DNA of 64,000 nucleotides from NCBI GenBank assembly GCA_021824145.1, contig JAKALM010000002.1:1-64000 (forward strand), read 5' to 3'. This DNA is from Bacteroidota bacterium (lineage in GTDB: Bacteria; Bacteroidota; Ignavibacteria; Ignavibacteriales; Ignavibacteriaceae). The translations under genes were made by a program, and so were the position numbers. A model generated the notes under the pieces. That model was not told the origin of the DNA, did not search any database, and saw only the letters and a program-made list of their open reading frames with translations. Positions 33,628 through 46,506 of the stretch are shown here, piece by piece; the stretch's first letter is position 1, and the number at the start of each line of letters is the position of its first letter.

Positions 33628-33656
33628 TTGACAAATTTTTATCTCGGTGTTATATT
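33628..33656 (+). promoter_or_regulatory. Sigma70-type promoter of groESL
   Basis: TTGACA (33628-33633) and TATATT (33651-33656) are spaced by exactly 17 bases. This is the only canonical sigma70-type promoter clearly seen in the window; other visible boxes are of the Bacteroidota TAnnTTTG type. Its -10 overlaps the CIRCE operator by two bases. Confidence 0.85.
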
Positions 33657-33681
33657 AGCACTCGCTTTTTGAGAGTGCTAA
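33655..33681 (+). promoter_or_regulatory. CIRCE operator (HrcA binding site)
   Basis: TTAGCACTC, nine bases, GAGTGCTAA is a perfect match to the CIRCE inverted repeat. It overlaps the end of the -10 box and the transcription start, so HrcA bound there would block groESL transcription until heat stress. hrcA itself is not in the window. Confidence 0.97.
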
Positions 33682-33720: not shown

Positions 33721-34017
33721 ATGGCAAAAATTAATTTAAAACCACTGGCAGATAGAGTAATCATTAAGCCAAGTGAAGCAGAAGAAAAAACCAAAGGTGG
33801 AATTATCCTACCAGATACCGCCAAGGAAAAACCAATTGAAGGAACAGTTGTAGCAGTTGGTCCAGGCAAAACTTCTGACGATGGAAAGCTTGTAAAACTT
33901 GAAGTTAAAGTTGGTGATAAGGTATTGTATGGAAAATACAGCGGTACAGAAGTTACAGTTGAAGGTGATGAATATTTAATTATGAGAGAAAGCGATATTT
34001 TCGCAATAATTGGTTAA
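33721..34017 (+). CDS. groES: Co-chaperonin GroES
   Basis: GroES is the heptameric lid of GroEL. The 98 residues carry [19 protein letters not shown] at the start, the mobile loop [26 protein letters not shown], and [18 protein letters not shown] at 33721 has GGAGG seven bases upstream. It sits 40 bases after the CIRCE operator and 37 before groEL in the standard order. Confidence 0.99.
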
Positions 34018-34036: not shown

Positions 34037-35689
<1,653 letters not shown>

Positions 35690-35737: not shown

Positions 35738-35765
35738 AAGGCGGAAGTTATTTCCGCCTTTTTTT
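35738..35765 (+). terminator. Rho-independent terminator after groEL
   Basis: AAGGCGGAA pairs with TTCCGCCTT around a GTTAT loop and is followed at once by a run of seven T. Confidence 0.93.
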
Positions 35766-35883
35766 ATCTTTTCAACAATCATTTTCTTAAAATCAAATTT
35801 TATATTCTTTATAATAGAAATTGCTATATTTAACATTAATTGTTGAACTAATTTTTAAATCTCAAAATTTTGGGAGAGAGTAA

Positions 35884-38800
35884 TTGACTTCTGAAGAACT
35901 TGATGCACTTCTAAAAGAAGCTTATGAACATTTAAGCCAAGGCCGTTACAGAATGGCTTTGACAGCTGCAAAGCAAGTTTACGACGAACGTCAATATGAT
36001 TATAATGCGGCTACTTGCTTTGCCTGGGCATTACTTGAAAATGGTTTTCCTTCTCAAGCCTTAGAAATGGCTAATCTTGCAGTTCAAATTAGTGGTGATG
36101 AAGTAAATTCTAGATTGTACCGAGGATTTCTTTTAATGAGGATGAGCATTTTTGAAGGCGCTATTTCTGATCTTAATTGGGCAATAAAAAAGAAACCAGA
36201 TTTGCTTGCTTGGGCACATTTAAATAAAGCACGAGCTTTAGGAGGATTAGGAAGATTTTTTGAAGGACTTGAAGAAATTGAGAAGGCAATTGAAATAGAT
36301 AATGGAAAAACTCCAAAGCTTTTAAAAGTTAGAGATTGGTTTAGAAAAACTCTTGGATATGATGAAAAGTTTTTCAATGGAATTTTTTCAAAGAAAAAAT
36401 CCATAATGAATGAGGCTGAAATATCTTTTAAAGAAAAAGAATATTGGTTTTCACTTTGGGCAGCTAGAGAAACCTTAAACTCCCCTTCTTTAAAGCAAGA
36501 GCACACAGCCGCCCATATCCTTGAGCTCGAATCTCTGTATTCAATGTTTCAAATGAAAAATGCTTTTATGATTGCCGAATCATTAAAAGAAGAATTATCT
36601 GACGATCTAAATTTTCAAAATATTTATCAAAAAATTGCAAAGTATTTTAAAAATGAAGAACTGTCTTCAATTGAAGATTTTGTAACAACCGAAACCAAAA
36701 GGACAGATTTTGAAATTTATGAGAATAAGTTTTATCACATTTACCAGATTAAAACTTATGATCTTATAGAAAATTTACGTTCCGAAAAAAGAACATTTTT
36801 ACTACAATTCAATGAAGATACAGTTAGATACATAGGTGTTGAAGTTATTCTTGATAATCCATTTTTCAAAAATAAAAGAATGGATGTTGACGGTACAGCA
36901 GTTTGGTTTTTAAATAATACTGAAGTTGGACGCCATCATTTTTTAATTGCAATGGAAAAAGATTGGAAGATGGTAGAATTTGTTCAGAGTTGGGGAACTG
37001 ATAATCCTGGCTTTTGGAAAGAAGGACAAGGAAGAGTTGATATTTATCTTGAAAATAATCTTGTTTGCTCGCGATGGTTTTTAGTTGGTCAATCCGAAAT
37101 ATTTAATTTTGAGGAAACTGTTATCCCATCGGAAGATTCAAACTCATTAGAAAAACCTGCAACTGACCAACCAAATAAATTAAACGAGTCAAATTTAAAG
37201 CCTCAAGAAACTAAATCTCTTGAAGAACTATTGCTGGAGTTGGATAGTTTTATCGGACTTCAAAATGTAAAACAATCTATGCGAGATTTTGTTGACTATT
37301 TGAAATTCATAAATGAAAGAAAAAAACTAGGATTAAAAACTCAAGATAACTTTGCAATCCATTCGGTCTTTTTAGGAAATCCGGGGACTGGCAAAACTAC
37401 AATAGCTAGACTACTTGGAAAAATTTTCAAAGCAATGGGAATACTTAAAAATGGTCATGTAATCGAAGTTGACCGCGCAGGATTGGTTGGACAATATATT
37501 GGTGAAACAGCACAAAAAACTAATAAGGTAATTGATGAAGCCATCGGTGGTCTTCTTTTTATTGACGAAGCTTATACTTTGAAAAAAGAAGGCAATCAAC
37601 AAGATTTTGGACAAGAAGCAATTGATATTTTGCTAAAAAGAATGGAAGACAGTAAAGGCGATTTTGTTGTAATTGCAGCTGGATATCCAGAAGAGATGAA
37701 TGCATTTATTAATTCCAATCCGGGATTAAAATCGCGCTTTAATCATTTTTTTAAATTCGACGATTACACTCCAGACGAATTGGTCGATATTTTTAAGCTT
37801 ACTTCAAGTAAAGAAGAATATAATATTAAAGACGAAGCTTTGGAACTTCTCAAAAAGCAATTTATAAATCTTTATAGAAAAAGAGATAAAACTTTTGGAA
37901 ACGCCAGACTAGTAAGAAATTATTTCAATGAAATTAAAATTCATATTAGTAAAAGATATTTAAAACTTTCAGAATCTGAGCGAACTAAAGAATCCATGGT
38001 AACAATCTACCCAGAAGATATTATTTCTTTATTTGAAAGTTCTGAAAATAAAATTGTGAAAATTGGAATTGACGAAGATGCTTTAGCAAAAGTCTTGAAA
38101 AAATTAAACGATTTGATTGGTCTTGAATCCGTAAAAAAAGAAATTAGTGAAACAGTTAAACTTGCCAGATTTTATTCTGAACAAGGCGAAAATCTTCAGA
38201 ATAAATTTTCTTCTCATATGATATTTCTTGGAAACCCTGGAACTGGAAAAACTACAGTTGCACGGCTTTACAGCGAACTGTTTTCAGCATTGGGAATTTT
38301 ACCCAAAGGCCATCTTGTTGAAGTTGATCGGCAAGGATTAATAGCTAGTTTTGTAGGGCAAACTGCCGAGAAGACTAAAGCTGCAATTGATAAAGCCATT
38401 GGCGGAACAATGTTCATTGATGAAGCATATACATTAATTAAATCAGTTGAAGGCAGCGGGTCAGATTTTGGTAAAGAAGCTTTAGATACACTTTTAAAAA
38501 GAATGGAAGATGATAGAGGTAAATTTATTGTTATCGCTGCCGGCTATACAGAAGAAATGAATAACTTCATTAATTCAAACCCAGGTTTACAATCAAGATT
38601 TACAAAAAGAATTTATTTTGAAGATTATACTCCAGATGAACTTTTAAAGATTACCGAGAAACTTCTTGAAAGCAAAAGTTTTGTTTTAGATGAAGAAGCA
38701 CGAGATCCATTAAAAAAACATTACAATACAATTTTCAGAAACCGCGATAAATCATTTGGGAATGCAAGAATTGTTAGAGATATAGTCGAAAATGCATTAA

Positions 38801-39762
38801 AAAATCAATTACTACGAGTTGCAGATATTCCAGCAGAAGAAAGACACGAAGAAGTTTTAAAGTATATATTACTTGAAGATATTAGTGCTTTGGTCGAACC
38901 TCAAAAAGAAAAAGAAATAATTAAAGTTGAAGGTGACCCGGAACTTTTAGAAAAATATATAAAAGAATTAAAAGCATTATCTGGACTTGAATCAGTTAAA
39001 AAATCTATTGATAAACTAATCAGTAGTTTGAAAGTTGCTAAACTTCGTAAACAACGCGGGCTAAATGTTATACCAAAAAATTTAAATTCAGTTTTTATGG
39101 GAAATCCTGGGACCGGTAAAACAACTGTTGCCAGACTTATTAGTAAAATATACAAGGAAATGGGAATTTTAGAAAAAGGTCATTTAATTGAAGTTGATCG
39201 ATCAAGCTTGGTTGCAGGTTATCAAGGACAAACTGCTACTAAAACAAATGACATAATTGATAAATCTCTCGGTGGCACTTTATTCATTGACGAAGCTTAT
39301 ACTCTTGCACGAGGAAGTCATGATTTTGGTCAGGAAGCAATCGATACACTTCTAAAAAGAATGGAAGATGATCAAGGGAAATTTGTTGTTATAGTTGCCG
39401 GTTATTCAGAAGAAATGAAAGAATTTTTAGATTCAAATCCTGGTGTTCAATCACGGTTTCCCAATATATTTTACTTTGAAGATTATGAACCACGTCAAAT
39501 GCTTGAAATTGCAAATGATATTAGTGAAAAAAACGGATATAATATTGATGAAGGCGCTTGGCAGCTTCTTCTTGAAATTTTCACAAAACTTTATGCTAAA
39601 AGAGATAAAAATTTTGGCAATGCCAGAACAGTAAAAAACATTTTATATAAAGCGATAAGCAATCAAGAAGAAAGAATATTATCTATCTATGAGCCCGACG
39701 TTACTGATTTAACAACCATTACTTATGAAGATGTAAACAAAATTGAATTAACTGAATATTAG
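35884..39762 (+). CDS. Giant protein with N-terminal TPR region and three tandem CbbX-type AAA+ domains
   Basis: The protein has 1292 residues in one frame. Residues 1-150 look like TPR helices (EAYEHLSQGRYRMALTAAKQ). Residues about 275-415 form a beta-rich domain with WFLNNTEVGRHHFLIAMEKD, followed by a Ser/Glu/Lys-rich linker. Three AAA+ modules of the CbbX/SpoVK/EccA family follow. Walker A (GNPGTGKT) lies at 498-505, 783-790 and 1073-1080, and Walker B (FIDEAY) near 559-564, 844-849 and 1134-1139. All three are intact, and each has a QSRF or KSRF element and an EDYxPDEL-type sensor region. The start is TTG at 35884 with GGGAG upstream. It follows groEL but after a terminator. No Rubisco or ESX gene is near, so activase or secretion roles are not supported; it is probably an unfoldase or remodelling machine. 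Confidence 0.9.
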   Translation: MTSEELDALLKEAYEHLSQGRYRMALTAAKQVYDERQYDYNAATCFAWALLENGFPSQALEMANLAVQISGDEVNSRLYRGFLLMRMSIFEGAISDLNWAIKKKPDLLAWAHLNKARALGGLGRFFEGLEEIEKAIEIDNGKTPKLLKVRDWFRKTLGYDEKFFNGIFSKKKSIMNEAEISFKEKEYWFSLWAARETLNSPSLKQEHTAAHILELESLYSMFQMKNAFMIAESLKEELSDDLNFQNIYQKIAKYFKNEELSSIEDFVTTETKRTDFEIYENKFYHIYQIKTYDLIENLRSEKRTFLLQFNEDTVRYIGVEVILDNPFFKNKRMDVDGTAVWFLNNTEVGRHHFLIAMEKDWKMVEFVQSWGTDNPGFWKEGQGRVDIYLENNLVCSRWFLVGQSEIFNFEETVIPSEDSNSLEKPATDQPNKLNESNLKPQETKSLEELLLELDSFIGLQNVKQSMRDFVDYLKFINERKKLGLKTQDNFAIHSVFLGNPGTGKTTIARLLGKIFKAMGILKNGHVIEVDRAGLVGQYIGETAQKTNKVIDEAIGGLLFIDEAYTLKKEGNQQDFGQEAIDILLKRMEDSKGDFVVIAAGYPEEMNAFINSNPGLKSRFNHFFKFDDYTPDELVDIFKLTSSKEEYNIKDEALELLKKQFINLYRKRDKTFGNARLVRNYFNEIKIHISKRYLKLSESERTKESMVTIYPEDIISLFESSENKIVKIGIDEDALAKVLKKLNDLIGLESVKKEISETVKLARFYSEQGENLQNKFSSHMIFLGNPGTGKTTVARLYSELFSALGILPKGHLVEVDRQGLIASFVGQTAEKTKAAIDKAIGGTMFIDEAYTLIKSVEGSGSDFGKEALDTLLKRMEDDRGKFIVIAAGYTEEMNNFINSNPGLQSRFTKRIYFEDYTPDELLKITEKLLESKSFVLDEEARDPLKKHYNTIFRNRDKSFGNARIVRDIVENALKNQLLRVADIPAEERHEEVLKYILLEDISALVEPQKEKEIIKVEGDPELLEKYIKELKALSGLESVKKSIDKLISSLKVAKLRKQRGLNVIPKNLNSVFMGNPGTGKTTVARLISKIYKEMGILEKGHLIEVDRSSLVAGYQGQTATKTNDIIDKSLGGTLFIDEAYTLARGSHDFGQEAIDTLLKRMEDDQGKFVVIVAGYSEEMKEFLDSNPGVQSRFPNIFYFEDYEPRQMLEIANDISEKNGYNIDEGAWQLLLEIFTKLYAKRDKNFGNARTVKNILYKAISNQEERILSIYEPDVTDLTTITYEDVNKIELTEY

Positions 39763-40107: not shown

Positions 40108-40929
40108 TTAAAATTTAATTTTAAAGTTCAATTGTGCTTGGTTTGTATTAAAAGGTTGAAAACTGGAAATGCTTAATTGATTTTTCCCAGTGAAAAATAG
40201 AAGATCAATTTGGCTGTATAACCAAACTGCCGCCAAAGAAATTAAAGAAATATTTTTCATTTTATAAGAACTATTATATTCATTATATCTTTGTTGAATT
40301 AAAGTGGGATCAATTTCATCAAGATATAATCTTTCTTTTTTATTGCTGTTAATGATAAAGTAAATTGATGATCCTAAAGTTAAAGCACATAATGAAGTTA
40401 GAATTGTACCTTTCAGGCCTTCGCCTAAGTAAAGATGCCCCCATCCTGGAAAGATTACTGACCTAATTGCTGCTTGTTTTAAATCTGCACTTGGTTCTTC
40501 GATATGAATTAATTTTGGAATATACACAGTATCAGTTTTTGTTTTGATTATTTGCTTTTCACTTTCCAATATTTGAAAATAATCATTTTTTACTTGATCA
40601 AAAAAAGAAATTATTTTTGGTGAAGTTGAAATAGAATCAAACGAAAAAGCTGTATCAATTTTTAAAATATTAAGAAAGCTTTCTTTCGCTCCCATTTCGT
40701 CTTGTAAAGAATATTGTGCTATGCCTTTTAATTTATAAATTTCTATAAGATTTTCATCTGTAATCTTTCCTTTATGCTCCAACAATTCATTTGCATTAAT
40801 TATTACTTGGTTATATTGAAATGATTCAAGTTGATTTTTTAGGCTGGTAATAGAATTCTGATTTTCCTGTGCAAATATCATTAAAGGAAACAACAAAAAT
40901 AAAAGTAATAATATTTTAAATTTGGTCAT
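40108..40929 (-). CDS. Exported/membrane protein with DUF5683-like C-terminal domain
   Basis: The ATG at 40929, one base after the kelch gene stop, gives MTKFKILLLLFLLFPLMIFAQ, a signal peptide. The region to about residue 130 is helical, with TPR-like features (LIEIYKLKGIAQYSLQDEMGAKESF). The C-terminal half has RSVIFPGWGHLYLGEGLKGT followed by two hydrophobic helices, the PGWGxxYxG pattern of DUF5683-type proteins. The function is unknown. It is the last gene of the operon that encodes the lipoprotein, sigma54 activator, Ser/Thr kinase and kelch protein, so it probably belongs to the same surface or envelope process. Confidence 0.78.
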   Translation of the reverse strand: MTKFKILLLLFLLFPLMIFAQENQNSITSLKNQLESFQYNQVIINANELLEHKGKITDENLIEIYKLKGIAQYSLQDEMGAKESFLNILKIDTAFSFDSISTSPKIISFFDQVKNDYFQILESEKQIIKTKTDTVYIPKLIHIEEPSADLKQAAIRSVIFPGWGHLYLGEGLKGTILTSLCALTLGSSIYFIINSNKKERLYLDEIDPTLIQQRYNEYNSSYKMKNISLISLAAVWLYSQIDLLFFTGKNQLSISSFQPFNTNQAQLNFKIKF

Positions 40930-40930
40930 A

Positions 40931-42160
40931 TTATTTAAGCAGCACCATCTTCTTAGAACTTGTAAAATAATCTGAAGAAAGTGTGTATATATAAACTCCA
41001 CTTGCTAAAGTATTTCCGTTATTGTCTTTTCCATTCCAAGTGTACTTATACTCGCCAGGAGAAAAAGTATTTGTTACTATATTTCTCACATGCGTTCCCA
41101 ATATATTATAAACATCCAATGAAACTTTTGCAGTTTTACTAATTTTAAAGGCAATTTGTGTTGAAGGATTAAATGGATTAGGATAATTATCTTCCAATTC
41201 AAAATTTTGTGGATTAGAGTAATTATTATTTGTAATTCCAGTAACCAAACTTAATTTTTCCACACTAGTTACCGGCAAACCATCTTGGTCAAGCCCTCCA
41301 AAAACATAAATTGATCCATTAAAACTAACAACCTCAGGATCTTTCCTAGCGAAATTTAACGAAGGTCCATTTTCAATTTCAAGTTCACTTTTCTTTAAAT
41401 CTATTTCTGCAACAGATGAAAGTGCATGATGAAGTTCATCATATCCGCCAATAATATAAATTACACTATCGCTTCCCAAAACAGCTACACCACCAGCTCT
41501 AGGTCTTTCCAATTCTAATGGCAGTTGTGAAAAGGTTTTTGTTACAGTATTAAAAACATAAATAGAATTTAGAAGTACACTTTCCGCCCCACCAAAAATA
41601 TAAATATCATTACCAACAACTACAGACATTTGTTGTGCAGGATTTTGAAATTTAAATCCTCCATTATCATCATAAGTTACTTTATTGGAATCAAAATTAT
41701 ATTCAAAAAGATATTTTGATGTCATACCAGAATATAATCCTCCAAAAACATAAAGTTTACCATTAACTACATGGCCGGTAGCATATGAACGGAAAAAGTT
41801 GGAATCAACACTTTCAACGTAAGGTGGGGTTTTTAAATTCCATATTTCTAAGGAACCAGAATTAAGATTATTTCCTCCAAAATAAATAATGCTGTCTGAA
41901 TAATTGTCGGCTACAAAATTCGCTCTAGGATAGTTCATCTTTCCTGCAATCGACCAGTTGTTAGATTGAATATCATATTCTTGAATGAGGTTTAGATTTG
42001 TATTTAATTTTGATGAAAAACCTCCTAAGACATAAATTGCTGATCCTTTAACAACAGCTTGGCCTCCTGATACTGAATTAGGCATATCACCTACTACAGA
42101 CCAAGTTTGAGCATATAATTCAATTGAAATTATAGTTATTAGTAAAATAAAATATTTCAT
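40931..42160 (-). CDS. Kelch-repeat protein with type IX secretion sorting domain
   Basis: A signal peptide (MKYFILLITIISIELYAQ) leads into six or so kelch repeats forming a beta-propeller: AVVKGSAIYVLGGFSSK, SDSIIYFGGNNLNS, VNGKLYVFGGLYSG, VVGNDIYIFGGAES, GSDSVIYIIGGYDEL and FNGSIYVFGGLDQDG. The C-terminal 80 residues are a type A sorting domain, with NYPNPFNPSTQIAFKI and a GVYIYTL pattern ending in KKMVLLK. It should cross the outer membrane through T9SS and be anchored or released at the surface. No T9SS machinery gene is in the window. The propeller may bind glycan or protein; the ligand is unknown. Confidence 0.92.
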   Translation of the reverse strand: MKYFILLITIISIELYAQTWSVVGDMPNSVSGGQAVVKGSAIYVLGGFSSKLNTNLNLIQEYDIQSNNWSIAGKMNYPRANFVADNYSDSIIYFGGNNLNSGSLEIWNLKTPPYVESVDSNFFRSYATGHVVNGKLYVFGGLYSGMTSKYLFEYNFDSNKVTYDDNGGFKFQNPAQQMSVVVGNDIYIFGGAESVLLNSIYVFNTVTKTFSQLPLELERPRAGGVAVLGSDSVIYIIGGYDELHHALSSVAEIDLKKSELEIENGPSLNFARKDPEVVSFNGSIYVFGGLDQDGLPVTSVEKLSLVTGITNNNYSNPQNFELEDNYPNPFNPSTQIAFKISKTAKVSLDVYNILGTHVRNIVTNTFSPGEYKYTWNGKDNNGNTLASGVYIYTLSSDYFTSSKKMVLLK

Positions 42161-42217
42161 TATTTATAATTTACTGATTTTTCTGTTTGCCTAATAAACA
42201 AGTATAATGCCATTATC

Positions 42218-43780
42218 TCATTGAGTAAATTGTTTAAAATTTAGTTTATAAGTAAAGGTTTTGCCGGCAGTTATTGTGATTTCTTTTCTTATAGGCGAAT
42301 AATTTTCGTTTTTTATTATCAATGTATAATTACCAGGGCTCAACATTATTGAATCCATCGGAGTTGTTCCAATTAATTTGTCATTAATATAAATATTTCC
42401 ATAGGGATTAACGTAACATTTTAAATATCCGATAAAATTATTAAAGTTTAGTTTTACTACTTTGTTTTCTCCAGAAGCTATTTTTATTTTTTCAAAAACA
42501 GGAGATGGATATTTTGCGTTTGTAAATTTTAAAGAATGAATCCCTGGTTTTAGTATATAATTCCAAATTGGAGTTATGCCAACTTCGTTAGAATCAATTG
42601 CAACTCTTGCCCAAGGATAAGAATCAATAGTTACACTTCCAGATATTATGTTTGATGAATTTTCGTTTTTAACTTTAGTTTCTAAATTTTCTAACTTTTT
42701 ATTACTACTAATTTCATTTTTAGGATCAACATTTTCATTTACTTTTTGAGAATTTTCTACAGTTGGTATTTTTTGTAAAGAATTTTTTTCCGACGTCTGC
42801 AATATGCTAACCGGTTGTTTGGTATTTTCAATTTGTTTATTACTAAATAATTTGGGAAAGGTAAAAAAAACTACAGCCGTGGCGATGATTAAACCTAATG
42901 ATGATATAATTAAAACATTCTTCATTCTCTTTTTTAAAGGAGAATTCAAAATGATAATTTGATCATCATCTAAAACACCTAATAATTTTAATGCTTCTGC
43001 TGAGGATTTTATTCGTTTATCCAAATTTATCTGCAGCATATTTTTAATTATCAACTGGATTTCTTCAGGAAGATGATCCAATTTCGCTTTACATTTATCT
43101 ACATCGAAATTTAGAATATTATTAATCGTTTCACCAACATCAGCTCCCAAGACTGGATTTTCTTTTGTGTAAAGCTCATAGCTTACCAAACCTGCCGAAA
43201 ATAAATCTGTTTGTTGAGATCTTTCTCCGCGAATTTGCTCTGGCGCCATATAGCTTGGCGTACCAACAATTGACGAACTATTTGTTAAATGGTTTTCATT
43301 CAAAACCAATGCAAGTCCAAAGTCTGCAATTTTTAATAATAGCTTCGAATTGACTAAAATATTTTCCGGTTTAATATCTCTGTGAATTATTTGATTTTGA
43401 TGTGCAGCATTTAATCCTTTTAGGAGTTGAATTATAAGATATTTTTTATCCTGATTTGATAAATTATTGTTGTTAATTATTTCTCTTAAATTCTGGCTTT
43501 CAAAATATTCAAATGAAATGTAAAAGAAATTTTTATAGGTACCGAAATCTAAAACTTTAATCAAATTAGGATGATCTAGCTGCGCAAGAATTTTTGCTTC
43601 TCTTTTAAATCTTTCTAAAATGGTTTTATCTGAAAGTCCTTCTGTATTTAGAGTTTTTAAAAGTATTTTTTTGCCCAAATAAATATGATTTGCTATATAT
43701 ACACTTGTCTCACCATCTTTTTTCAGGCAATTTATAATCTCAAATTTATCAAACAATATTTCGGCAGATATTTGGTTCAT
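42218..43780 (-). CDS. Membrane Ser/Thr protein kinase with two PEGA domains
   Basis: Residues 12-265 are a Hanks-type kinase: K42 in ILLKTLNTEG, catalytic HRDIKPENILV at 133-143, DFG at 153-155 and GTPSYMAPEQIRGE in the activation segment. A TM helix (IISSLGLIIATAVVFFTF) near 290-310 is followed by a charged linker and two PEGA domains (about 383-450 and 452-518), seen in SYPWARVAIDSNEVGITPI and VNPYGNIYINDKLIGTTPM. PEGA domains should lie outside the cytoplasm and bind surface layers or glycans. It is encoded 13 bases after the sigma54 activator, so the kinase may phosphorylate that protein. No canonical PASTA repeats are present. Confidence 0.92.
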   Translation of the reverse strand: MNQISAEILFDKFEIINCLKKDGETSVYIANHIYLGKKILLKTLNTEGLSDKTILERFKREAKILAQLDHPNLIKVLDFGTYKNFFYISFEYFESQNLREIINNNNLSNQDKKYLIIQLLKGLNAAHQNQIIHRDIKPENILVNSKLLLKIADFGLALVLNENHLTNSSSIVGTPSYMAPEQIRGERSQQTDLFSAGLVSYELYTKENPVLGADVGETINNILNFDVDKCKAKLDHLPEEIQLIIKNMLQINLDKRIKSSAEALKLLGVLDDDQIIILNSPLKKRMKNVLIISSLGLIIATAVVFFTFPKLFSNKQIENTKQPVSILQTSEKNSLQKIPTVENSQKVNENVDPKNEISSNKKLENLETKVKNENSSNIISGSVTIDSYPWARVAIDSNEVGITPIWNYILKPGIHSLKFTNAKYPSPVFEKIKIASGENKVVKLNFNNFIGYLKCYVNPYGNIYINDKLIGTTPMDSIMLSPGNYTLIIKNENYSPIRKEITITAGKTFTYKLNFKQFTQ

Positions 43781-43793
43781 CTAGTAAAATAAA

Positions 43794-45278
43794 TCAAATG
43801 TTTTCACCAAGTTCTTTAATTTTTAATTGAATCCATCTTACTGAAACTCCTAAAGATTTAGCAGCAAGAGTTCTATTACCTTCGTATTCTTGCAAACGTT
43901 TTTTTAAAAGCATTATTTCAAAATCTTTAAGTGTTCCTTTAATAGCAATTTCATCTGTTTCTTCTTCAATTACAATATGATCTGGAACTATTTTATTATC
44001 ATCACATAAAATAAGTGCTCGCTGAACAACATTCTCTAGTTGGCGAACATTTCCAGGCCAGTTGAAGTCTTCCAATATTTTAAGCGCTTTAGGATCTATA
44101 TGGATTTTTTTATTAGAAAATTTTTTAATAAAATGATCCACCAATAAGGCGATGTCTCCTTTTCTTTCTCGTAATGGAGGCACCTTAATCGGAAATACAT
44201 TTAGCCTATAAAAAAGATCTTCTCTAAATTTACCTTCTTTTGATAATTGTTTTAAATCTTTATTGGTTGCGGCAATTACTCTTGCATCAACTTTGATAAC
44301 TTGAGTATCGCCTAATCTAATAATTTCTTTATTTTGAAGAACACGCAGCAGCTTTGCTTGTAGAGCGATTGAAATATCGGCAATTTCGTCAAGGAAAAAA
44401 GTTCCATTATTAGCAACTTCAAATAGACCTTTCTTATCAGAATTTGCACCTGTAAAAGCTCCTTTTTTATATCCAAACAATTCACTTTCTAAAAGTGTAT
44501 CCGGAATAGATCCGCAAAACTGAGCCAGATATGGTTTATCTTTCCTAGTACTTAAAGTATGAATAGCCTTTGCAATAAGCTCTTTTCCGGTTCCGCTTTC
44601 TCCAAGAAGTAAAACTGTTGCATCAGTTGCTGCAACTTTGTGAATCAATTCTGCCATCTTTTGCATTGCAGAACTCTTTCCAATTATTTCTGGAATTGTT
44701 TTACTTATCTGCAACTGATTTTTCAATATTATATTTTCTGCTTGAAGCTCCTGCATTTTAATAATTTTGTCTAATGCAAGAGAAACAAGATTGGAAAAGA
44801 AATCAAGGAATACAAGATTTCCTTCATTAAAATCTTTCCTATTGTTTAAGCTATCTACCAATATAACTCCCCAAATTTTTTCTCCATGCTTAATCGGTAC
44901 GCCTAAAATAGATTTGATATTATGAATCTGGATACTTTTAAATTGCGAAACATTCGGATCACTTTGAACATCGTGATATAAGCATGGTTCTCTTTTATCA
45001 ATAACCTTTTGTAAAACACCAGATGAAAAAACTGAAAGATCATCAATATTTTCCTGTTGAATATTTCTTGCCGCAATAATGTTGAACTTATTTTCTTCCG
45101 AATCATATTTTACAAATAATCCGCGCTCTGCATTAATAACTTTAATTACCAAATCCAATGTTTCCTGTATAAGTGAATCTTCTAATATAACAGAATTTAA
45201 TGCCTGGCTAATTTGATAAAGTGTATTAAACTGCTCTTTGGAAATTAGTTTTATTTTTTCAGTATTATAATCAATCAT
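43794..45278 (-). CDS. GAF-domain sigma54-dependent transcriptional activator
   Basis: This bacterial enhancer-binding protein has 494 residues: a GAF domain (about 20-175), a linker coiled coil, an AAA+ central domain and a Fis-type HTH. In the central domain Walker A is GESGTGKE (226-233), the sigma54-contacting GAFTGA loop lies at 273-278 and Walker B (FFLDEIAD) at 294-301. The C-terminus is NRTLAAKSLGVSVRWIQLKI. There is no receiver domain; the input is the GAF domain or possibly phosphorylation by the adjacent Ser/Thr kinase. No clear sigma54 promoter (TGGCAC-N5-TTGC) was found in the window. It is the second gene of the operon. Confidence 0.95.
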   Translation of the reverse strand: MIDYNTEKIKLISKEQFNTLYQISQALNSVILEDSLIQETLDLVIKVINAERGLFVKYDSEENKFNIIAARNIQQENIDDLSVFSSGVLQKVIDKREPCLYHDVQSDPNVSQFKSIQIHNIKSILGVPIKHGEKIWGVILVDSLNNRKDFNEGNLVFLDFFSNLVSLALDKIIKMQELQAENIILKNQLQISKTIPEIIGKSSAMQKMAELIHKVAATDATVLLLGESGTGKELIAKAIHTLSTRKDKPYLAQFCGSIPDTLLESELFGYKKGAFTGANSDKKGLFEVANNGTFFLDEIADISIALQAKLLRVLQNKEIIRLGDTQVIKVDARVIAATNKDLKQLSKEGKFREDLFYRLNVFPIKVPPLRERKGDIALLVDHFIKKFSNKKIHIDPKALKILEDFNWPGNVRQLENVVQRALILCDDNKIVPDHIVIEEETDEIAIKGTLKDFEIMLLKKRLQEYEGNRTLAAKSLGVSVRWIQLKIKELGENI

Positions 45279-45291
45279 ATAATTTTATTTT

Positions 45292-46263
45292 TTATTTCAC
45301 ATTAAAAGTGGCTGGGAGAGACCTGCATCTGTTTTGAAATTGATCTATTACCCAAAGTACCCAATAATAATTTTTTGTGCTTAGAGGAGTGGTCAATTGG
45401 TACGATACAGAATCTGAAGAAATATTTTCTCCTCTAAATACTAACTGCGAATTTGCAAAATCGTTTGTGTAAACTTCTATCATATAGGTAAAGGGATATC
45501 CAGTTTTATATCTTTGCCACATAAATAAAGGAGTTGCTGAAACTGTTGTATCATTAGCTGGATAAAGAACCGAAACACCATTTTTAATTACTCTGGTTAC
45601 ATTACTGCTCCCAACATTATATTCATTTTGAAAATGATCTTTTGCAACAATATTAAAATCTAAGCCAATAGTTTGCTCAATATCAGTAATATTTAAATCC
45701 TGAGTAGAAAGTACTGTTTCATAAAACTTACTTGCTGCATTGAAATCTAATGCTTTTTTAAGATTAAGCTGAGAATTTTCTACAAAAACTGTATCAATAT
45801 CATTATCCTTATCGGAAACTTTTGAATTTACATAAAGCTGATATGATTGCCCCGGCGGTGTAAATTGATTTGTAACAACTGTATAAATTGAAATACTATC
45901 AAGCGTAGGAATTTGAAATAAATAGATGAATGAATCTAAAGTTTTTGAACTGCCCCAGGCAATATTAATCGTATCTGCTCTAAATCCATTTTTTTGAAAA
46001 ATAAGTTTACCATTAACAGGCAAAATATTTCCTATTGAAAAATTTCCATTATTATCTGTATTTACTATAATGTTTGACGGACCCCAATAAACCGAAACAC
46101 CAGAAATCCCATCATGCGGAATGCTATATGTTTGAACTTTTCCAGTGATAGTCACAAAAGCATAATTCGGATTATTTGGATCTAATGGATTATTTTTTGG
46201 TGCATTGCACGACATAAAGTAAAATGAAATAGTAAATAAATTTAGACTCACTATCCATTTCAT
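45292..46263 (-). CDS. Lipoprotein with carboxypeptidase-regulatory-like and Ig-like domains
   Basis: The ATG at 46263 gives MKWIVSLNLFTISFYFMSC, a lipoprotein signal; an in-frame TTG at 46290 is also open. The mature part begins NAPKNNPLDPNNPNYAFV, a Bacteroidota-type linker, followed by a beta-sandwich (VTITGKVQTYSIPHDGISGV, then FSIGNILPVNGKLIFQKNG) like carboxypeptidase-regulatory domains. Fibronectin-type-III-like strands and LYPANDTTVSATPLFMWQRY come at the end. No catalytic residue set is seen. It is the first gene of the kinase/sigma54/kelch operon and may be an envelope sensor or substrate-binding surface protein. Confidence 0.75.
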   Translation of the reverse strand: MKWIVSLNLFTISFYFMSCNAPKNNPLDPNNPNYAFVTITGKVQTYSIPHDGISGVSVYWGPSNIIVNTDNNGNFSIGNILPVNGKLIFQKNGFRADTINIAWGSSKTLDSFIYLFQIPTLDSISIYTVVTNQFTPPGQSYQLYVNSKVSDKDNDIDTVFVENSQLNLKKALDFNAASKFYETVLSTQDLNITDIEQTIGLDFNIVAKDHFQNEYNVGSSNVTRVIKNGVSVLYPANDTTVSATPLFMWQRYKTGYPFTYMIEVYTNDFANSQLVFRGENISSDSVSYQLTTPLSTKNYYWVLWVIDQFQNRCRSLPATFNVK

Positions 46264-46506
46264 AAAAATATTAAATCCCGTTTTCTTCAAGCAAATTCCA
46301 TGAAATTATAGTATCAATTATATAAAACATATTGATGTTTACTTGTTGCAAAAAGCACTTTTATAATGAGTTGAATTAATATCAAAACAGTTGTTTGATT
46401 TTAACTTAGTTAAAAAGATTGTTATTTTGTAGTCAAGTGAATCTAAGTAAATTGTTTTAAAAATTTCTTATTAAAATATTATTCTTACCAACTAAAAGGA
46501 ATAATT

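Follow-up and report, generated by a model that had tools for sequence, protein, structure and literature searches.

A conserved three-module AAA+ protein of the SpoVK-CbbX-EccA clade in Ignavibacteriales and its possible assembly into stacked rings

The usual division of AAA+ chaperones is into machines with one ring and machines with two. Members of the SpoVK-CbbX-EccA clade are dedicated chaperones with variable N-terminal recruiters, and features of the clade are a GY at sensor 1 and an Asn four residues upstream of the first Arg finger (PMC10659427). CbbX (PDB 3syk/3zuh) has one AAA+ module per chain and neither a TPR nor a beta domain. EccA also has one module, preceded by a TPR region and a beta element (PMC10659427). 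Two-module proteins of other AAA clades, p97, Pex1/6, Rix7 and ClpB, form double rings in which same-module rings are stacked and one ring may be inactive; in Pex1/6, NBD1 has weak Walker motifs and mostly lacks Arg fingers, and NBD2 is intact (PMC5447069). We analysed a 64,000-nucleotide stretch of an Ignavibacteriaceae genome (the window; assembly GCA_021824145.1, contig JAKALM010000002.1) that encodes a 1292-residue protein with three modules behind TPR and beta domains (TPR-beta-AAA3). No published description of a three-module member of the clade was found in the open-licence literature. The protein is real, conserved and, as far as that search reached, undescribed.

The TPR-beta-AAA3 gene is an ORF at 35884..39762 on the plus strand. 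It begins with TTG behind a Shine-Dalgarno-like GGGAGAG read from the sequence (35872..35878, +), and this start is shared by most orthologues, which have a similar N-terminus too. A TPR-type helical region (residues 1-264; 35884..36675, +) was recognised from an AF2 model, TPR profiles and Foldseek, and a beta domain (residues 268-412; 36685..37119, +) from the AF2 model and profile searches. AlphaFold modelled the N-terminal 444 residues with confidence (pLDDT 88, mostly above 90 in the TPR region), placing helices at 3-264 and then the beta domain at 276-402, and TPR profiles matched 52 of the 53 family members; the TPR and beta-rich N-terminus of the preliminary description is thereby confirmed. 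The best 50 Foldseek matches of the N-terminal model were to TPR superhelices or TPR proteins only, with none for the beta domain, and profile searches with this domain against Pfam and the PDB gave no credible match.

Three AAA+ modules follow on the same strand. Module 1 spans residues 445-715 (37216..38028, +; Walker A 498, Walker B 559, Arg finger 618, sensor-2 Arg 675), module 2 residues 733-1002 (38080..38889, +; Walker A 783, Walker B 844, Arg finger 905, sensor-2 Arg 962) and module 3 residues 1021-1286 (38944..39741, +; Walker A 1073, Walker B 1134, Arg finger 1191, sensor-2 Arg 1248). Pfam matched AAA (PF00004, E 1.8e-54) and AAA_lid_6 (PF17866, E 2.3e-46) in three stretches each, and every module carries GNPGTGKTT, FIDEAYTL, an NPG..SRF finger and a GNAR sensor 2. 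Profiles and motifs thus bear out the earlier reading of three full modules with intact Walker A, Walker B and Arg finger, and sensor 2 is intact as well. Catalytic and pore-loop residues are conserved, the pore aromatics being Y or F in LVGQYIG-type motifs. The modules are 49-51% identical to one another, and each is 38-41% identical to R. sphaeroides CbbX, CbbX being the nearest solved structure by sequence and fold. AlphaFold left the arrangement of the three-module part unfixed (pTM 0.39), so that the structure prediction proposed earlier gave a confident answer for the N-terminal 444 residues and not for the order of the modules in space. Foldseek matches over two modules (Rix7, Drg1, p97, ClpA) aligned with a large rmsd, and their TM-scores on the query were just 0.2-0.33.

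The clade features recur in each module. Sensor 1 reads AAGY, AAGY and VAGY in modules 1-3, and the Asn before the first Arg finger stands in NPG..SR in all three, six residues upstream by plain count against the four of the published description, whose numbering may differ. The sensor-2 Arg, or second finger, is present three times in GNAR, as is the AAA core with its AAA_lid_6. On these motifs the protein is assigned to the SpoVK-CbbX-EccA clade, of which it was the sole member found in the window's genome. It shares its pore-loop motif, Arg finger and lid family with CbbX, its TPR and beta element before the AAA+ part with EccA, and its clade-level motifs and an above-threshold chain score with SpoVK. 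That score is misleading: the whole chain reached 806 against an NCBIfam SpoVK cut-off of 423, but the single modules scored 286, 279 and 266 bits and none passed, so a SpoVK label would be an artefact of adding, and SpoVK identity was rejected. Summing over three modules took the whole protein past three equivalog cut-offs together, those of SpoVK, EccA and CbbX (the summing effect being shown for SpoVK). Scores summed over repeats can mislabel a protein as a sporulation or type VII secretion factor, and automatic naming could be wrong. The RuBisCO activase role of CbbX was likewise rejected: no match to the RuBisCO large subunit (PF00016) was found in the window's genome, against matches in 5 of 14 controls, which extends genome-wide the earlier remark that no Rubisco gene is near. 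As to EccA, its N-domain profile (EccA1, PF21545) matched one of 53 family members, weakly (E 0.0036), and no type VII secretion gene was seen among the neighbouring genes examined.

Homologues (E <= 1e-20) were present in 53 of 59 genomes drawn from the window's own genome, genus, family and order, most with the same layout in 1250-1370 aa; a Melioribacter relative is 48% identical to the window protein, which places the host in Ignavibacteriales. The search for homologues and their neighbours called for in the preliminary description therefore found the layout order-wide. A scan of genome contigs by short peptide patterns yielded four loci only. In a phylum sample of 296 genomes, the beta domain occurred in 25 of 28 genomes of Ignavibacteriales and in six outside the order, as beta2-AAA2 proteins (four), a beta2-AAA1 protein (one) and a secreted-looking beta2 protein (one). 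TPR-beta-AAA3 itself was seen nowhere outside Ignavibacteriales among these 296 genomes, and a second sample of 118 genomes held no three-module chain outside the order. The beta2-AAA2 and beta2-AAA1 proteins of other Bacteroidota (L128-L132) have the same beta domain family and AAA clade, but they carry two beta domains, one or two AAA modules and no TPR. With three-module chains seen in these samples only within the order and beta2 cousins outside it, TPR-beta-AAA3 is a variant, at the level of the order, on a theme found more widely in Bacteroidota.

Two-module chains of the clade occur in several phyla, those other than Bacteroidota having been sampled through plasmid and phage records only. 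Among them are beta-helix AAA2 proteins on plasmids of Streptomyces (T7SS locus L141) and Ligilactobacillus (L140), which resemble the window protein in having tandem modules behind a recruiting domain, but have two modules and N-terminal parts that do not match its beta domain. Tandem copies of the same beta domain were also found in proteins that begin with a signal-peptide-like segment and lack an AAA module (L133:6526-7362, L134:37-873 and L127:6113-8098); it is thus a domain of more general occurrence, without a Pfam family.

The history of the modules was read from a tree of 95 modules, in which grouping followed position (SH-aLRT 97-99) for modules 1, 2 and 3, both in the main type and in a second three-module protein of the order, paralogue B. 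Because grouping is by position in both paralogues, the triplication is judged from the tree to be old and to predate their split. Module 2 grouped with the second module of beta2-AAA2 and the sole module of beta2-AAA1, so that the last module of these cousins clusters with module 2 of the window protein. Internal duplication had been proposed from long segments shared by the modules. The duplication is supported, and the phylogeny suggested for dating it makes it old, with modules clustering by position across the order; the shared segments are mostly catalytic motifs and do not mark recent copying.

Loss of ATPase sites was scored in 51 distinct three-module chains (153 modules), taking the Walker A lysine and T/S plus the Walker B DE as the ATP site and scoring the Arg finger separately. 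Site and finger were both kept in 138 modules and both lost in 15, and no module was discordant (Fisher p 4.5e-21, a value that overstates the support because the sequences are related and the 153 modules are not independent). The state of a module was unassociated with that of the next or previous one (p = 1). Losses fell on module 3 twelve times, module 2 twice and module 1 once; one chain has two lost modules, and losses confined to one other module affect module 2 in L054 and module 1 in L096. The preliminary description would have been refuted by close relatives with a module lacking ATPase residues. Across the order, 12 of the 51 chains have a module 3 without its ATPase, through at least three and most simply six changes on the tree; all motifs are intact in the same-genus chains examined. 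Of the 15 dead modules, 13 keep the pore aromatic, as would be expected if a passive ring went on lining a channel. In module 1 the Arg finger and the aromatic pore loop hardly vary, and in module 2 both are strongly conserved.

These losses bear on how the chains might assemble. In an in-plane ring of the dynein or midasin type the finger serves a different module, so a module that lost its own ATPase would still have to supply a finger to another; in a stack of equal modules it would not. By this indirect test, finger status followed the module's own ATP site and in no case that of a neighbour, and whole-module decay with the others intact, as in type II-like stacked rings, was seen in 15 of 15 losses. 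The pattern suggests, from sequence comparison, contacts between the same modules of different chains and hence three stacked rings, over an in-plane 3+3 pseudo-hexamer; the first ring of Pex1/6 is a published precedent (PMC5447069). Co-loss within a module could partly be general decay of a relaxed module, and the stacking argument rests on the neighbouring sites staying intact. Stacking is pointed to as well by the apparent outright deletion of module 2 in L066 and L135 and by the 3, 4 or 5 motif-bearing modules of the zinc-ribbon cousins described below; chains with 4 or 5 such modules would not fit evenly into one six-fold ring.

On balance, the TPR-beta-AAA3 protein is probably a chaperone of the SpoVK-CbbX-EccA clade, a cytosolic AAA+ remodeller with three ring-forming modules per chain, stacked. 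Six chains would most likely assemble with equal modules meeting, both the stacking and the number six being inferred, to give a module 1 ring, a module 2 ring and a module 3 ring, like p97, Pex1/6 and ClpB with one tier more. The TPR arm and beta domain at the entry side would recruit a dedicated client, a segment of which the aromatic pore loops of each ring may pull, and the client would be remodelled or disassembled and not degraded. The principle proposed is that of the double rings, extended to three modules in a different AAA clade. A more specific and tentative proposal, to which we give a little less than an even chance, is a natural triple-ring machine: a stack of three homo-hexameric rings in which each particle has up to 18 ATPase sites and the last ring was repeatedly retired to a passive state. 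If true, this would add a third type to the AAA+ proteins with one ring and those with two; a conserved three-module member with a stacked-ring pattern of decay would extend that scheme. The natural series of chains with 1, 2, 3 and up to 6 modules, with live and dead rings, offers material for testing why rings stack. The analysis also marks a gene conserved across Ignavibacteriales with a candidate chaperone role.

Other assemblies were weighed against stacked rings. The preliminary description had offered a pseudo-hexamer of two subunits beside a stacked remodeller. Two chains in one ring (1-2-3-1'-2'-3'), with the finger of the next, different module completing each site as within dynein, would suit three modules that divide six evenly and three distinct, position-specific module types maintained across the order. 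Such a ring predicts that a lost module keeps its finger or that its neighbour decays, neither of which was seen, and it sits poorly with chains from which module 2 appears deleted and with relatives of 1, 2, 4, 5 or 6 modules. We consider it unlikely, and of the two assemblies the stacked one is favoured. An open spiral, a filament or a monomeric scaffold, with the TPR-beta part as adaptor and the AAA modules as nucleotide-controlled switches in place of a threading ring, is improbable to a similar degree. The unfixed module arrangement in the predicted model leaves room for it, and the loss of ATPase in some modules implies that hydrolysis at every site is not needed, but the conserved Arg fingers and pore aromatics make most sense at ring interfaces and pores.

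Two further alternatives to a stacked remodeller of its own client come from neighbouring genes. The gene lies behind groES (Cpn10; 33721..34017, +) and groEL (Cpn60; 34055..35689, +), with a CIRCE operator upstream of groES (33655..33681, +), and about 16 of 28 same-family genomes have groEL just upstream on the same strand, separated from the gene by no more than one ORF. A stress chaperone tied to GroESL and belonging to the HrcA/CIRCE heat-shock regulon is nevertheless very unlikely. An intrinsic terminator (35738..35760, +) separates groEL from the gene, as predicted terminators do in 15 of 15 groEL-adjacent loci; groEL adjoined the gene at none of the loci examined in the order's other two families, and no CIRCE directly precedes the gene in the window, the operator before groES being the neighbour's and not its own control. 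A co-operon with groESL was rejected on the conserved terminators. The position after groESL behind a terminator, noted earlier, stands as a family-level neighbourhood and not an operon. A dedicated assembly factor for an ABC exporter is also quite improbable. In 17 relatives from two families the gene is followed at once by an ABC ATPase (ABC_tran) and an ABC_tran_2 (PF16949) permease. The gap is 0-129 bp, in most cases no more than 60 bp, and no terminator intervenes; this pair is the recurring operon-like partner of the gene, and the permease is at this spot in 17 of the 26 genomes encoding it. However, the window's genome (assembly 95% complete) has the AAA gene and gave no match to such a permease; the permease is absent from 33 of the 59 genomes and the AAA gene present in almost all of them, and three genomes (G013, G022, G025) have the permease without the AAA gene. 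An obligate exporter factor is weakened by these absences. Since the window's genome has no permease match, the exporter cannot be the sole client; for relatives with the downstream pair one may reasonably guess at an export or envelope client.

A promoter-like TTAAAA-17-TATAAT lies before the gene (35787..35815, +); it is a consensus match only, and such sites are no commoner in the region than in shuffles. On its other side the gene adjoins an opposite-strand block (40108-46290, -), conserved mainly within the genus, of a DUF5683-like protein, a Kelch protein with a secretion tail, a Ser/Thr kinase with PEGA, a GAF-sigma54 activator and a carboxypeptidase-regulatory-like protein. In one same-family chain (L135:6201-8495) module 3 is dead and both module 2 and the TPR region have been lost; its locus still has groESL upstream and the ABC pair downstream.

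The order also holds paralogues with other neighbours. Paralogue B lies 3-4 bp behind a set of SiaC, DUF6272 and 85-aa genes (L034, L056, L057, L059), with a large cluster of signalling proteins upstream of the set, which suggests a Sia-type signalling link. A zinc-ribbon paralogue (L065:156-5189; also L060-L064) has a degenerate first AAA module and 3, 4 or 5 complete ones, 4-6 in total and up to six in 1677 aa; its tree placement suggests recent block duplication of module pairs. It is in an operon with a Ser/Thr kinase, a zinc-ribbon-FHA protein and a PP2C phosphatase. From the neighbours of the paralogues and the main type, the clade in Ignavibacteriales is repeatedly tied to phospho-signalling or export genes. 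With 4-6 modules in the same order and two-module chains in several phyla, the earlier premise of one AAA+ module per chain, sometimes two, was too narrow. Multi-module members of this AAA clade are carried by unverified human-gut phage records too (L139:2002-4785 and L142:1936-4746). One of these phage proteins has a zinc-ribbon-like start, and the other a beta-rich-looking region whose end resembles, by eye, the beta domain of the window protein.
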